From contig PGYM01000002.1 in assembly GCA_002839675.1 (NCBI GenBank), forward strand, positions 166,111-230,110: a DNA stretch of 64,000 nt, read 5' to 3'. Shown piece after piece: positions 442 through 23,126 of the stretch (positions are counted from its first letter, which is position 1; every line of letters starts with the position of its first letter). Under the pieces are notes generated by a model, which saw nothing but the letters and a program-made list of their open reading frames with translations, did not search any database and was not told the origin of the DNA. The position numbers were made by a program, and so were the translations under genes. The DNA comes from Methanomicrobiales archaeon HGW-Methanomicrobiales-1 (lineage in GTDB: Archaea; Halobacteriota; Methanomicrobia; Methanomicrobiales; Methanospirillaceae).

Positions 442-1479
442 ATGTTCAGATTTGAAAAAGAACAGAGTGTCTGGGACTTTAACGGCACCAAGATTGGTGG
501 ACAGCCCGGAGAGTACCCAACCGTATTGGGTGCCTCAATTTTCTACAACAAGCACGAGTGCGTGCTTGATGACCACAAGGGAACGATCGACAAGGCAAAG
601 GCAGAAGCCCTCTGGAACCGCTGTCAGGTCCTGTCAGACCTGACCGGAGTTCCACACTTCATCCAGATCATCGCGGAGTACGGCGAAGCCTTTGAGAGCT
701 ACTTCAACTGGTTCGACAGCATCGACAACAAGACCGCATTCCTGATGGACTCATCAGTACCAGCAGCACTTGCCCATGCATGCAAGTATGTTACTGAAGT
801 CGGCCTTGCTAACCGTGCGATCTACAACTCGATCAACGGTTCAATCCTGCCCGAGAGCATCGAAGCACTCAAGAACAGTGACGTCGATGCAGCCATTGTG
901 CTCGCATTCAACCCTGCAGACCCGTCAGTAGCGGGAAGGGAGAAGGTGCTCGTAGAGGGTGGCGTTGCAGGACAGACAAAGGGTATGCTCGAGATCGCAG
1001 AGTACTGCGGTATCAAGCGCCCGATTCTCGACACTGCAGCAACCCCGCTCGGCCTCGGCAGCGGCGGCTCATACCGTGAGATCCTTGCATGCAAGGCAAT
1101 CCACGGGTACCCGACCGGTGGTGCATACCACAACATGACCGTTTCCTGGACCTGGCTCAAGCGCTGGAAGGGGACGAGCAAGACCCCCTCGGTACTCGCA
1201 GCAGGATACGAAGGTAAGGATGTTCTGCTCAAGCAGATGTCCCACCACTACCTCGGCGGTATTGAAGGCATCAAGCAGGCAGCATGGTCAGCCCCCGATA
1301 TCGGCTGCAACATGATTGCTAGCACCCTCGGTGCAGACCTTATCATGTACGGTCCGATCGAGAATGTCGAAGCAATGATCACGGCACAGGCATACACGGA
1401 CATCACTGTCCTTGAAGCAACCCGTCAGCTCGGCATTGAGTGCAAATCAGATAGCCACCCCATCTTTAAACTCATTTAA
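442..1479 (+). CDS. mtrH: Tetrahydromethanopterin S-methyltransferase subunit H
   Basis: MtrH is the soluble peripheral subunit of the Mtr complex. It transfers the methyl group from methyl-H4MPT to the corrinoid carried by MtrA, the first half of the energy-conserving step in methanogenesis. The 345-residue product begins MFRFEKEQ and is recognised along its whole length, including the segments KIGGQPGEYPTVLGASIFY and GADLIMYGPIEN; it is somewhat longer than the roughly 310-320 residues usual in other orders. A strong ribosome binding site GGAGGTG lies at 425-431, about 10 bases before the ATG. It is the last gene of the mtr operon, and a run of T follows directly after the stop. Confidence 0.96.
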   Translation: MFRFEKEQSVWDFNGTKIGGQPGEYPTVLGASIFYNKHECVLDDHKGTIDKAKAEALWNRCQVLSDLTGVPHFIQIIAEYGEAFESYFNWFDSIDNKTAFLMDSSVPAALAHACKYVTEVGLANRAIYNSINGSILPESIEALKNSDVDAAIVLAFNPADPSVAGREKVLVEGGVAGQTKGMLEIAEYCGIKRPILDTAATPLGLGSGGSYREILACKAIHGYPTGGAYHNMTVSWTWLKRWKGTSKTPSVLAAGYEGKDVLLKQMSHHYLGGIEGIKQAAWSAPDIGCNMIASTLGADLIMYGPIENVEAMITAQAYTDITVLEATRQLGIECKSDSHPIFKLI

Positions 1480-17854: not shown

Positions 17855-18274
17855 TCACTTCAGCGGAACGTACTTGCTTCCTCGTGTTGCACCGATACCG
17901 GCGCTTCCGTGAGAGATCTTCTTTCTGGTCAGTGCAAATTCACCGAGGTAGTGGAAGACAGACTCCGGCTGGAATTCCACCTTGAGGAACTCTTTGCCAT
18001 TGTAAATCTCGATGGTCTTGCCGATCATTTCCGGCATGACCAGCATCTCACGGAGATGTGTTCTGACTTTTTCATCGCCACTGCGAACCTTAGCGAGTAA
18101 TGTCTCTTCTCCACGGGAGAAACCGCGAACAATCTTGCGGCGGGGACGGGAAGGCATAAGCGGGAGGAGTTCGCTGATTCCCTTTGCCTTGAGCTCGTCT
18201 ATTGTAAAGCCGCGATAGGTGAACTCCTCACGCCGTCTTGGCATTCTCTTCTGTGTCTTTTTAGGTGCTGCCAT
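17855..18274 (-). CDS. rps19: Ribosomal protein uS19
   Basis: Small-subunit head protein. The ATG at 18274 gives [22 protein letters not shown]; an in-frame GTG at 18283 lies within the uL2 end and is less likely. Family signatures are [19 protein letters not shown] and [21 protein letters not shown], with the ending [19 protein letters not shown]. Confidence 0.96.
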
Positions 18275-18279
18275 ACCCT

Positions 18280-18996
18280 TCACTTCCTGCTCTTACCTGT
18301 CCTGCGTGCAGCCACATGCCCTACAGTCCTGCCTGGAGATGTGCCTCTCGCAACAGTCTTCGGGCGACCAGTGTGCTGGTGTCCACCGCCACCGAACGGG
18401 TGGTCGATAACGTTCATTGCGACACCACGGACGCGTGGCCAGTTGGATGCGGTGTTCTGCATCTTATGGTGCTTGTTGCCTGCTTTGACAAACGGCTTGT
18501 CTACGCGACCGCCACCGGCTACGATACCGATAGTTGCACGGCAGCGGTGGTTGAACCACTTGGTCTTGCCGCTGGGCATCTTAATACCGACCCGGTCTTC
18601 TATTTTATCAACGACAACTGCCTGGACTCCTGACGCCCTGACAAACTTGCCGCCATCATTGGGGCGGGCTTCGATATTGCAGATGTAGGTACCGGTCGGG
18701 ATGTGCTGGAGAGTGAGTGTGTTTCCGTTCTTCACTTCTCCGCTGGAACCCCAGGTGATAACTTCTCCGATTCCGAGCCCTTCGGTCACAAGCATATAAA
18801 CCTTGGATCCACTCTCGAGTTTGACGAGTGCAATAGGTGCATTGCGGGCCGGGTCGTGCTCGATGTCGATAACACTGCCGGTGATATTCTGTGTGTCGTC
18901 ACCGATGTGTTTCAACTCTGCTTTGTAACGGTGGGATGGCGCCCGGTATGTCGGACCTCCTTTTCCACGCGCTTGTGTAGTAATGCGATGTCCCAT
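18280..18996 (-). CDS. rpl2: Ribosomal protein uL2
   Basis: Core large-subunit protein of 238 residues needed for peptidyl-transferase assembly. The C-terminal signature GVAMNVIDHPFGGGGHQHTG is diagnostic. The N terminus MGHRITTQARGKGGPTYRAPS is the archaeal form. Located after uL23 in the S10-type cluster. Confidence 0.97.
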   Translation of the reverse strand: MGHRITTQARGKGGPTYRAPSHRYKAELKHIGDDTQNITGSVIDIEHDPARNAPIALVKLESGSKVYMLVTEGLGIGEVITWGSSGEVKNGNTLTLQHIPTGTYICNIEARPNDGGKFVRASGVQAVVVDKIEDRVGIKMPSGKTKWFNHRCRATIGIVAGGGRVDKPFVKAGNKHHKMQNTASNWPRVRGVAMNVIDHPFGGGGHQHTGRPKTVARGTSPGRTVGHVAARRTGKSRK

Positions 18997-19006
18997 TTTT
19001 CCCCAC

Positions 19007-19255
19007 CTACATTATGCCAAGCCGGCTCAGAATTTCCTCGGCTGCTTTTTCGTTCTCAAAGCTCACGGTGGCTTTCTTTTCACCGTGCATGTTCATGAGA
19101 GTGCAAACGCTCTTTACCTTCTGTCCGAACGTCTTTTCCATCTCGCGTTTGATGGAGATCTTTGTTGCCTGACGGTTAACGAGGAACTGGAGTTTGCTCT
19201 GGTTCTCTAACAGGACCATCGCCTTTTCAGTTACAAACGGGTATTTCAGAACCAT
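19007..19255 (-). CDS. rpl23: Ribosomal protein uL23
   Basis: Protein at the tunnel exit that docks SRP and chaperones. The 82-residue product begins MVLKYPFVTEKAMVLLE and has KISIKREMEKTFGQKVKSV. Its start directly follows the uL4 stop. Confidence 0.96.
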   Translation of the reverse strand: MVLKYPFVTEKAMVLLENQSKLQFLVNRQATKISIKREMEKTFGQKVKSVCTLMNMHGEKKATVSFENEKAAEEILSRLGIM

Positions 19256-20002
19256 TTATCTCCCCTCCAGCCGGACGAGTGCACTTTCGGTCCATACGGT
19301 CAGGCGTCCTGCCAGCATACCGGGTGCAAGGTGCTCTACATTCAGTTGGTCTACAGTCACTACATCGACACCGGAAAGGTTGCGTGCTGCACGCAGCGGT
19401 GTTCCGGCAGTGACGATGAGCAGGCTCTTTCGCTGCTTGAACCGGCGACCGCGCATCTTGCCTCTCCCGGCTTTGACTTTCTTGCTGTCCTTTGACCGCT
19501 CAACATCTCCGTAGAGACCTGCTGTAGTGAGGGCGGTGATGACATCTGCTGTCTTGTCAAGAGACTCAAACTTGTCCTCGAGGACAAACGGGGCTGCGCC
19601 ATTGAAGATGTGGCCTCTTCCCCTGATGAGTTCTTCACAGATGCTTGCTGCAACCGCAGAGCGGAATGCCTTCTGTTTTTCCTTCTGGTTGATCTCTTTG
19701 ATCAGTATTTTGGCTACTTTCGGGGGGTGTGCTTCACGCCCGCCCTTTGCCTGCGGAACCTTGGCTGCCCGTGAACCGTTTTTGAGACGGGGCACGTGCG
19801 ATGAACCACGACCGCTTCCCCAGCCTACTGCTGACGAGCAGATGCCGGCAAACGGGTTAGTCCCGTGCGGCTGCCTGCGGGTGCTCTGGAGGGCCATGAC
19901 TGCCTTTTTGATCAGATCGGGGCGGTATGCTTCGGAAAAGAGTTCCGGAAGTTCAATGTCTTTTACAACGCCGCCATCAAGTGTTTTAACCTGTGCTTTC
20001 AT
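19256..20002 (-). CDS. rpl4: Ribosomal protein uL4
   Basis: Large-subunit protein of 248 residues with a long loop reaching the exit tunnel. QSTRRQPHGTNPFAG, GWGSGRGSSHVPRLKNGSRAAKVPQAKGG (key part GSGRGSSHVPRL) and GRGKMRGRRFKQRKSLLIV are typical of the archaeal form (L1e/L4e). Confidence 0.97.
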   Translation of the reverse strand: MKAQVKTLDGGVVKDIELPELFSEAYRPDLIKKAVMALQSTRRQPHGTNPFAGICSSAVGWGSGRGSSHVPRLKNGSRAAKVPQAKGGREAHPPKVAKILIKEINQKEKQKAFRSAVAASICEELIRGRGHIFNGAAPFVLEDKFESLDKTADVITALTTAGLYGDVERSKDSKKVKAGRGKMRGRRFKQRKSLLIVTAGTPLRAARNLSGVDVVTVDQLNVEHLAPGMLAGRLTVWTESALVRLEGR

Positions 20003-20008
20003 CTCTGA

Positions 20009-21022
20009 TCACCCCTGCTTGCTCTGGACGCTCACAAACTGGATTGCGGGCATCTTGACAACTTGTTCACCGAGACGAATTGCCGGGCGGATACGTACAA
20101 GACGCTTGACCGGACCGGGTATCGATCCCTTGACCAGAACATACGGGCTCTTTAAAACACCATAGTGAAGGAATCCACCTGCTGGTGTGATTTCACTGGC
20201 ATTCTCGCTGACTTTTAAGATCCGCTTGTTGAATTCAGTGCGCTGCTGGAATCCCAGCTGACCAATCTGGGGGACCTGCCACCTTACATGGTGGGGGTTC
20301 CATGGTCCAAGAGTACCGATATGTCGTTCTTTCTTGCCGCGAGAGTGCTTGCGTTTGCGCAGTGCGATACCCCAGCGCTTTACAGCACCCTGGGTACCTT
20401 TACCGGTTGTGATCGCCGTAATATCGGCAAACGCGCCGGTCTGGATGACATTATCTAACGTGATCTCTTGTCCTAAGAGACCCTGCGCAAATTCAAACAA
20501 TTTCGCGATATCGCCACCGCCGACCTTGATTTCCATAAGGTCGGGGACTTTCTTGGGAACTCCGGAAAGGGCTGCGGGTTGTGTGTAGGTAACCGCATGG
20601 ATCTCTGCAACAATACCGGCTGTAATTGCATCTGCAAATTTTTTCTGCGCGGCTTCTTTGTTGTAATCCTTGGGCATAGTGATCCTGCGTCCAAGAACTG
20701 CATCGAGCGGGTCTGCCCAGATTTCGGTCAGGGCATGTTTACCGTATGTATCACGGGAGTATGCGCGGATTGCAGCCACTTTCATCGAGGGTATTTCAAT
20801 AACGGTGACGGGCACCATTATCTCCTTACCTTCGGTGGGGCTGGTCTTGCGATCGTCCACCATGATAACATGCGTCATACCTACTTTGTATCCTGCAAAT
20901 CCCTGCAGCATCGGTGCCCCTTCGGTAACGGGCCACGACTGGTACTTCGGGATTGGGCTCTTTGCACGCTTTCTCGGGCTGAATGCAAGAGAACCACGGC
21001 GGGGTCTGTTAATTTTTGGCAT
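20009..21022 (-). CDS. rpl3: Ribosomal protein uL3
   Basis: First gene of the S10-type operon here and a key early assembly protein near the peptidyl-transferase centre. The 337-residue archaeal form starts [36 protein letters not shown] and [23 protein letters not shown] are diagnostic. The long region before it (21023-21680) should contain the operon promoter and a hairpin-rich segment. Confidence 0.97.
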
Positions 21023-21130
21023 GTGTTAATCAATCCTTTTTTGCGTGTAGGTTATTCTGATTGCGACACGAATTTGAGATTAATCCGAGCTTTTGAAACA
21101 AATTTTGTTCCAGAAACTAACACGCGACAC

Positions 21131-21510
21131 GGAGAATGAACCCATTAACAACCATCAGCGAAATCAATCCGTAGTAACGGATTGCTGACTCTGGTGACTG
21201 ATGCTGGTTTTTCGTCCGTAATTTAGGGGATGCAACAGAATTGCATCACTGTGCCGATGTGCTCCGGCATTCCTGTCTCGCGAAAGAAGATCCTGATATT
21301 GGCGCATCCACTTGCTGCTTGGTGCAGCAGAGGGAACGGGCTCGTTGCACGAACGTCGACCCATGCGTCCTAATCAGACCCACTCTGTCAGCCTGTTGTG
21401 ACGAATCACAACTCCTTCTCGGTTTACCCCTCCCTTATGGGGAGAGGCACCAATCGAGGAACACCCACGGCACAACCGTTATTCTTTGTGTCTGGAGATA
21501 CGGTTCCGCC
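21131..21510. other. Hairpin-rich non-coding region before the S10 operon, candidate structured RNA or leader
   Basis: The 658-base gap 21023-21680 has no convincing gene. Several stable hairpins follow one another: 21165-21184 (8-bp stem CAATCCGT/ACGGATTG), 21229-21247 (7-bp stem GATGCAA/TTGCATC), 21251-21270, 21313-21329 (TGCTGC/GCAGCA), 21337-21363, 21395-21412 (GTTGTGA-CGAA-TCACAAC) and 21418-21458 (two-part stem CTCGGTT/AATCGAG enclosing a seven-pair C-rich stem with one bulged A). I could not match it to SRP RNA (found elsewhere), RNase P RNA or tRNA. It is either a free-standing non-coding RNA or part of the leader of the ribosomal operon; the strand is not settled. TATA-like sequences on the minus strand near 21605-21620 and 21520-21530 would allow transcription toward rpl3. 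Confidence 0.5.
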
Positions 21511-21680
21511 GTTTCAAGAGATCAAAAATATGCTTTTCATCTGAAAAACATACTGATTCTCGATAGGATAACCTCATATCGGCTTCCATAATGATTGTAG
21601 AGAAGAAGATATAAATATATGCCAGAGGGGTGTCGGTTTTTCACCGGGGAGAAAACAACCACGTGCGGCGAATGGGATTA

Positions 21681-22085
21681 TTATCCGAAATAGAGTTCTC
21701 CCTGATCGGTGATATACACCACAATATCCTCGCACATGCACCGGGCCTTGCAGCACTGGGGGCGCGCTTCCCGGATACGGTTGATCAAGGATATGGTATC
21801 GTATTTGACTTTGATATTGATCTTTTCTGCTTCACCGAATACAATGGCAGGAACATCGAACAGGTCCGTACCTGAGGGAATGGTGCAGAGATGAGTGGCA
21901 TCGAGGGTGTAAAGGAACTCAAGCGTCTCTTTTGCACGACGAATATTTTCCATAGCACTCTTTTCTATAGTGCAGACATTGGCTTTGGATGTGGAAATAA
22001 TATCGGCGATCTGTTGCTGGGTCAGCCCCTGTTTCCGGTACCTGAGAACCTCCATCTGACGATCAGTAAGCAGCCCATCTTTCAT
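21681..22085 (-). CDS. tfx: Tfx family DNA-binding protein
   Basis: The 134-residue protein has an N-terminal helix-turn-helix (about residues 8-45: LTDRQMEVLRYRKQGLTQQQIADII, key part KQGLTQQQIADIISTSKANV) and the Tfx C-terminal region with GTDLFDVPAIVFGEAEK. Tfx was described in Methanothermobacter as a regulator binding downstream of the fmdECB promoter. A Cys cluster CCKARCMC near the C terminus could bind a metal or respond to redox. It is divergent from mtd, with their starts 200 bases apart, so control of mtd is plausible but not shown. Confidence 0.82.
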   Translation of the reverse strand: MKDGLLTDRQMEVLRYRKQGLTQQQIADIISTSKANVCTIEKSAMENIRRAKETLEFLYTLDATHLCTIPSGTDLFDVPAIVFGEAEKINIKVKYDTISLINRIREARPQCCKARCMCEDIVVYITDQGELYFG

Positions 22086-22286: not shown

Positions 22287-23126
22287 ATGGTTGTTAAAGT
22301 AGGAGTTGCCAAGCTCGGCAACATCGCAAGTGGTGTAATGGCAGAACTGCTTCTCGATGAGAGAGCAGACCGTGAAGACATGCAGACATTCATGGCGACC
22401 AGCGGCACAAAACTCGAGCCGGCTGATGTTGACCGTGTTGTTTCCAACCTGAAGGCATACAAACCTGACTTCTGTATTGTTGTCTCCCCCAACGGGGTTC
22501 TCCCCGGCCCAACCGGTGCCCGCGAACAGCTCGCAGCAGCAGGTATCCCGGTCATCATCATCACTGATGATGTAACCACCAAGAAGGAATGGGAAGGAGT
22601 CAAGGCAAGCACTTTCGGCTACATTATCATGAAGGCAGACTCCATGATTGGTGCCCGCAGAGAGTTCCTTGACCCCACCGAGATGGCCGACTTCAACGGC
22701 AACCTTGTGAAAGTGCTGGCACTTACCGGTGCATTCCGCAAGATGCAGCTTGCTATTGATCTGGTCATCGACCAGGTGAAGGCAGGAAAGAAGGGCGCAG
22801 AACTTGTGCTCCCCAAGATCGTCATGACCACCGACAAGGCAGTCGACGGCGAATTTACCAACAACTATGCACTCGCAAAGGCACGCGCTGCCCACGAGAT
22901 TGCAATGGCCGTTGCAGGACAGAACGTCAAGGGCTGCTTCATGACCAAGGAATGGGAGAAATACATCCCCATAGTTGCCAGCGCTCACGAAATGATGAGA
23001 TGCGCAGCAGCACTCTGCGATGAAGCCCGCGAGATCGAGAAGGCCGGCGACAGCATTATGCGCAAGCCCCACAAGAAAGACGGCACACTCGTCTGCAAGA
23101 ACAAACTCGTTGCAAAATTCGAGTAA
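22287..23126 (+). CDS. mtd: F420-dependent methylene-tetrahydromethanopterin dehydrogenase
   Basis: Reduces methenyl-H4MPT to methylene-H4MPT with reduced coenzyme F420, a central step of CO2 reduction to methane. The 279-residue length is standard, and [29 protein letters not shown], of which [13 protein letters not shown] is the hallmark, plus [16 protein letters not shown] and [22 protein letters not shown]-type ending ([14 protein letters not shown]) identify it clearly. Promoter and ribosome binding site are strong, as expected for an abundant enzyme. It meets the galT-like gene tail to tail with a 7-base gap rich in T. Confidence 0.98.

Follow-up and report, generated by a model that had tools for sequence, protein, structure and literature searches.

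An RF03135-bearing leader before a ribosomal-protein operon in Methanomicrobiales, apparently derived from a decayed SPOUT methyltransferase gene

The S10-operon leader of Escherichia coli is bound by L4. Relatives of the SPOUT RNA methyltransferase family PF02598 (Methyltrn_RNA_3) have solved structures, namely MT0001 (1k3r) and human C9orf114 (4rg1). In archaea, the RNA motif RF03135 (L4-Archaeoglobi) was described by Eckert and Weinberg (2020) as lying before rplC, rplD, rplW, and rplB (PMC7247131). That paper infers the ligand, L4, from earlier r-leaders (entered as 'Prior'), and its Table 1 assigns the motif to Archaeoglobi with a rating of '?', which stands for borderline (PMC7247131). 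No description of an overlap between RF03135 and a methyltransferase gene was found in titles and the beginnings of abstracts, a scope outside which the supplement of PMC7247131 on the borderline rating lies.

The window, by which we mean the whole 64,000-nucleotide stretch of DNA that was analyzed, comes from a relative of Methanoregula and contains about 650 nt without a credible gene between the gene of a TFX-type regulator (21681–22085) and rpl3 (uL3; 20009–21022; PF00297), both on the minus strand. rpl3 is the first gene of an operon that continues on the same strand with uL4 (19256–20002; PF00573), uL23 (19007–19255; PF00276), and uL2 (18280–18996; PF03947), after which an ORF at 17855–18283 comes next. 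The TFX gene, which encodes a TFX_C-type DNA-binding protein (PF14601, TIGR00721), adjoins the ribosomal leader on its upstream side, and mtd (methylene-H4MPT dehydrogenase; 22287–23126, plus strand) is divergent from it. A first-pass annotation had described positions 21131–21510 as a gene-free array of stable hairpins, either an unrecognized non-coding RNA or a leader controlling the ribosomal operon. The region indeed holds mechanical ORFs only, and all of the named stems were found on the minus strand: perfect stems at 21412–21395 (7 bp), 21247–21229 (7 bp), and 21184–21165 (8 bp), as well as the C-rich stem at 21447–21427 nested within a second stem. The array proved longer than first described, extending from approximately 21588 to 21023. 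The hairpins located 5' of 21275 are kept in relatives; no sequence conservation among relatives was detected for those at 21274–21130.

The minus-strand RNA of 21020–21530 folds at −170.7 kcal/mol in comparison to −146.0 ± 6.5 kcal/mol for its 100 dinucleotide shuffles, none of which was as low (z = −3.79), and the plus strand of 21131–21510 gave z = −2.75 with one of 100 shuffles as low. That both strands fold better than most shuffles might favor a separate small non-coding RNA, encoded on either strand and independent of the operon. We consider such an RNA highly unlikely, however, given that the distance and strand relative to uL3 are conserved, that the structured region has a promoter block at its 5' end and the ribosome-binding site at its 3' end, and that the coding copies described below sit inside a reading frame of the operon. 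The arrangement points instead to a long 5' leader (about 21588–21023) of the uL3-uL4-uL23-uL2 mRNA. The leader suggestion of the first-pass annotation fits these results, as the region lies on the same strand directly before those four genes, in a conserved place and with covariation; its origin from a decayed methyltransferase gene had not been foreseen.

Followed 5' to 3' on the minus strand, the leader is preceded by a TATA-box-like element (21609–21620) of the putative operon promoter. The conserved 5'-end block GGAAGCCGATATGAGGTTATCC (21566–21587) provides the leader start and the 5' arm of the closing helix (helices 1 and 2), and in all 34 genus loci with enough sequence this promoter-proximal block (GGAAGCCGATATGAGG) has a TATA-like word no more than 45 nt upstream. 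The 5' domain (21456–21574; RNAalifold, 36 relatives) comprises the closing helix, a covarying side helix 3, and helix 4, the latter formed by 21511–21502 and 21477–21468. It is followed by the C-rich hairpin (helix 6; 21427–21447), the sequence of which is variable with its pairing kept; by eye, other families of the order, as well as the intact gene of locus L160, have a hairpin of different sequence at this position. The word CCGAGA (21417–21422) is the 5' partner of a proposed long-range pairing, and after it comes the 7-bp hairpin GUUGUGA-UUCG-UCACAAC (21395–21412). The pairs of this hairpin are invariant in 36 of 36 rows and therefore give no covariation evidence within the genus; across the order, one of them is kept by double change in 2 of 67 rows. 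The full core (21288–21381) is closed by P1, with arms GGGUCUGA and UCAGGAUCU and a bulged G; the same arms occur in the haloarchaeal coding sequence, and the pairs are changed in Methanoperedens. Beyond the Rfam model, the stretch 3' of the core (21275–21291) reads AUCUUCUUUCGCGAGAC and is recognizable elsewhere, being AUCUAUUUGCGAAGAC-like in Methanoperedens and UCUUUUCGAGAUGAC in Methanosarcinaceae. Nearer to rpl3 are GCUCGG (21085–21090), the 3' partner of CCGAGA, and AGGA (21034–21037), the likely rpl3 ribosome-binding site, within the conserved AAGGATTGA. Either CGUGUC (21070–21065) or GCGUGU (21125–21120) could pair with ACACGC (21048–21043), just before this site, and these words are kept mainly in the genus and its sister.

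The core of the leader is a member of RF03135. Positions 21377–21293 of the minus strand match the whole 85-position model at 50.4 bits (gathering score, 34.5), this is the single match in the genome, and the core ends 270 nt before uL3 on the same strand. The first-pass annotation had itself set a known-family match against its term 'unrecognized'; such a match now exists, and the term is lost for these 85 nt. It holds for the 5' domain, the C-rich hairpin, and the 21412–21395 hairpin, which lie outside the core and have no match to any Rfam family. By the Rfam model, RF03135 was located just before uL3 in 57 of the 108 genomes of the window's family, and across the phylum 230 of 392 genomes contain it, with one match in each. 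A further model, R1, was built from 23 of the 36 genus copies (alignment A3). Of 47 uL3 loci in the order, two of which carry an intact gene, R1 recognized the element upstream of uL3 in 45, and its matches include most of the genomes missed by the Rfam model; the loci missed by R1 were L143, which is without a uL3 start, and L162. Three genus genomes without an Rfam match have no uL3 match in their assemblies either. R1 also detected the element in 26 of 27 coding loci and in 61 of 80 named loci, in all of the 61 on the uL3 strand and just upstream of uL3. Neither a methyltransferase gene nor the element was found by the model in 15 of the 80, of which eight show the element architecture by eye. 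Loci L217 and L222 (both Methanococcoides), L220, L229, L230, L231, and L238 have no methyltransferase ORF and nothing core-like by simple pattern before uL3, and are possibly true losses of both gene and element. A match to the Rfam group II intron D1-D4-7 was noted upstream of uL3 at 789–899 (minus strand) of L212, a Methanosarcinaceae (ANME-3) contig.

When 97 loci were oriented by uL3, the element lengths outside the order were 85, 88, 94, 97, 100, and 103, every one of them 1 mod 3. In all coding copies examined, the element is crossed by an open frame. This frame encodes a SPOUT RNA methyltransferase (PF02598; 190 bits for L090), and its stop is close before the uL3 start. A length of 1 mod 3 was seen at 29 of 29 coding loci; the 68 non-coding loci split 27/25/16 over the three classes (L079 being left out of the 68 copies for alignment A1). 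The element lies within the SPOUT ORF directly before uL3 in Archaeoglobi, haloarchaea, Methanotrichaceae, ANME-2, and two rare Methanomicrobiales. Among the 80 named loci, 21 have the element inside a full-length SPOUT ORF (including Archaeoglobi, Methanotrichaceae, ANME-2, Methanocellales, and the two Methanomicrobiales), a count that leaves out L178, where the element is accompanied by a relic frame only (71 codons, 15.9 bits). A further 39 have the element without a SPOUT ORF, and four, all Archaeoglobales, have a SPOUT ORF and no model match, although three of these match Rfam. Placement of RF03135 in a 5'-UTR is thus true of the window, whereas in Archaeoglobi, haloarchaea, Methanotrichaceae, and ANME-2 the motif is within the SPOUT ORF, and the 'leader' of the eponymous lineage is therefore coding sequence.

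PF02598 was not detected in the window's genome at E-values up to 10 or in any of the 108 genomes of its family; in the other families of the order it was present in 2 of 34. Using tblastn, the intact gene of L090 was aligned to 21381–21277 of the window leader (E = 1.2e-7) with an in-frame stop, and that of L091 to 21430–21275 (E = 9.4e-6). The alignments span two frames of a SPOUT reading-frame relic (21275–21430, minus strand; REGVVIRHN... and GSD*DAWVDVRATSPFPL...), and the window holds relic fragments only, with no open frame over the domain. A sense-strand relic at E ≤ 0.01 was observed in 39, and an antisense relic in none, of the 111 leaders that lack the gene (107 from the order and four from Methanoperedens). 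The indels in gene-less copies of the element are out of frame. Comparison with the intact genes shows that the window leader is the remnant of a SPOUT (PF02598) methyltransferase gene once placed first in the operon. A similar 5'-end block precedes the methyltransferase ORF in both intact-gene relatives, L090 and L091, and for this reason the present leader seems to have kept the start of the old operon mRNA.

In the uL3 tree, the order forms one clade (100/99) within which the two intact-gene genomes stand apart, one of them joining six gene-less genomes as their sister with clade support of 100/98. On the named tree, constructed without L182 and L253 (L253 is too short), gene presence needs four changes, three of which are forced by starred branches. 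Losses only would be the simpler biology for this pattern, the alternative being one loss with regains inside the order. Methanoperedens has PF02598 in none of four genomes and shows a short element 81–125 nt before uL3, the arms of which read GGAUUUGA/UCAAAAUCU where the window has GGGUCUGA/UCAGGAUCU; compared with the window P1, a C-G pair is changed to U-A and the bulge is in place. The R1 E-values for this element range from 5.8e-5 to 0.52 and Rfam has no match, so its assignment rests on architecture and place. PF02598 was likewise found in none of five Methanosarcinaceae genomes, which show GGGCCAAU...GCCC with arms of the UUUAACA/UGUUUAA kind (11 of 13 loci compared). By itself, the copy of Methanosarcina does not fold with P1 (z = 0.29), and the assignment in this family is for that reason rated as probable only. 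Judged from the genome sequences, the enzyme is gone and the element kept in Methanomicrobiales and Methanoperedens, and probably also in Methanosarcinaceae.

For the 36 genus leaders, RNAalifold yielded a structure of 72 pairs in 12 helices. Paired cells amounted to 95.6% versus 90.3% in shuffles, double-changed pairs to 24 of 72 versus 16.2, and double-changed cells to 150 versus 50.2, each value being reached in 0 of 500 shuffles; the rows are related, which inflates the shuffle control, and the structure was derived from the same rows. Slid structures gave at most 49.1% paired cells and 49 double-changed cells. Compensatory changes in orthologous leaders, which the first-pass annotation had named as a check, are present in these 150 cells. 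Double changes occur in five of six pairs of core helix 12 and also outside the Rfam model, where they affect six of six pairs of side helix 3 in the 5' domain, four of four of the C-rich hairpin, and three of nine of helix 4. Within the genus, a number of core helices do not vary at all and are hence uninformative on covariation; most P1 pairs are also invariant there and are changed on both sides in Methanoperedens. We conclude that the leader is a structured, selected RNA of one operon, independent of the enzyme.

Codon choice was compared in haloarchaea, where the closing-helix arms read GGA-YCT-GA and TC-AGG-RTC-TCT. In 30 of the 31 rows (L060 left out), the Arg codon of the arm is AGG at 30 of 30 sites, a codon that serves 14 of 1512 Arg residues in the remainder of these genes and in uL3, the Ser codon after it is TCT at 30 of 30 versus 26 of 867 elsewhere, and the Gly codon is GGA at 30 of 30 versus 242 of 1873 elsewhere. 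Across all 31 rows, 12 of 22 residue-conserved columns within the element have a fixed codon, compared with 13 of 105 beyond it (Fisher, 5e-5, for rows that are not independent). Protein conservation does not account for the frozen rare codons of the arms. These data bear on a reading in which RF03135 is a conserved stretch of SPOUT protein-coding sequence and no RNA, and the window match a decaying pseudogene. Such a reading would suit the well-conserved reading frame in which the match lies outside the gene-loss lineages, and the borderline rating of the motif by its discoverers (PMC7247131, Table 1). It predicts drift after gene loss, yet nearly all relatives retain the core, with indels out of frame, pairs changed on both sides, and synonymous arm positions frozen on rare codons in haloarchaea, and we regard it as exceedingly improbable. 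The dead-gene covariation, the indel frames, and the frozen codons led us to reject RF03135 as a false family produced by coding conservation alone.

The best explanation as a whole, to which we assign a probability of about 0.72, is a decayed-gene leader with a retained RF03135 element that acts as an r-leader. The comparison indicates that the ancestral SPOUT gene carried the element within its reading frame and that, as the protein gene decayed, the RNA persisted and became part of a larger structured leader. Excess uL4 or uL3 may bind the core and lower expression of the operon. The published guess for the ligand is uL4, and uL3, encoded next, would be equally good; feedback by an operon product is suggested by position. 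We infer ligand and feedback from position because no rRNA-like site was found by model or descriptor: the best R1 match to the partial 23S of the window's genome reached 7.0 bits (E = 0.13), and on the genus 23S locus, flanks included, the hairpin descriptor did no better than shuffled sequence and shared words did not exceed chance. The 23S gene of the window's genome is incomplete because it runs into the end of contig C5 (G000, L173). Mimicry of rRNA by three-dimensional shape only is possible. The SPOUT enzyme cannot be the required ligand, as the element is still present in genomes that have lost the enzyme gene. The finding of no rRNA mimicry and the long multi-domain architecture would also suit a functional leader that works without a ribosomal protein, through mRNA stability or processing, transcription pausing or attenuation, or the sensing of a small molecule. 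In every locus examined, over the whole phylum, the element is nevertheless tied to one operon, which established knowledge and PMC7247131 treat as the usual signature of autogenous r-leaders, and we find this alternative rather unlikely.

Under regulation by uL4 or uL3, the read-out in the genus could be a switch between a local UUGG/CCGA stem and a long-range stem that would enclose the core, formed by CCGAGA and, close to the start of rpl3, UCUCGG or GCUCGG. The CCGA of CCGAGA also pairs with UUGG (21453–21450) in helix 5, in the genus and its sister, so that the two stems would be mutually exclusive. Most genus members have UCUCGG where the window has GCUCGG. In 106 rows, counted with no correction for relatedness and with one genome (G457) entered twice, CCGAGA before the 21412–21395 hairpin and UCUCGG near uL3 were both present in 55, both absent in 40, and present singly in 11; the local partner GATTGG was present in 38 of 62. 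Among the rows listed, UCUCGG lies between 36 and 146 nt from the uL3 start, a spread to be expected if pairing and not place matters. The proposed switch depends on one word pair, of which the window has five of the six base pairs, and is a lead, not a result. On a wider scale, we think it likely that a cis-regulatory RNA lodged in the SPOUT gene controls the r-protein operon from within coding sequence across Halobacteriota, and that, once the gene had become dispensable in at least two to three lineages, RNA selection by itself kept the stretch as a non-coding leader, to which new helices and a long-range switch were added.

These results turn a borderline, one-class Rfam family into a phylum-wide element that exists both as RNA inside coding sequence and as a free leader. 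The gene losses serve as natural experiments that separate RNA selection from protein selection and exclude the enzyme as a needed ligand. The locus provides a concrete archaeal case of part of a protein gene turned regulatory RNA. It also opens archaeal r-protein feedback to tests in Haloferax volcanii and Methanosarcina, and it is a warning that annotated genes can conceal r-leaders.

What is new here is the origin and extent of the element, its core being already in Rfam. The leader resembles RF03135 in core sequence and structure, in its above-cut-off score, and in its place before rplC-rplD-rplW-rplB. It differs in that the published lineage is Archaeoglobi (PMC7247131), compared with 230 of 392 genomes of the phylum here; in that most lineages have the element within the coding sequence of the gene upstream, a non-coding copy occurring only where that gene has been lost; and in that the window leader has, beyond the family model, additional hairpins and a 5' domain with covariation. 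From the gene of the PF02598 SPOUT methyltransferase the window leader descends, with a relic only and no PF02598 match in the genome. The rRNA-mimic r-leaders (S15, eL15) have a likeness to the rRNA site of their ligand that was not seen in the window core. Unlike the S10-operon leader of E. coli, to which we claim no relation in sequence or structure, the archaeal element is found inside a gene; the two have in common an operon with L3, L4, L23, and L2 and a likely feedback by an operon product.
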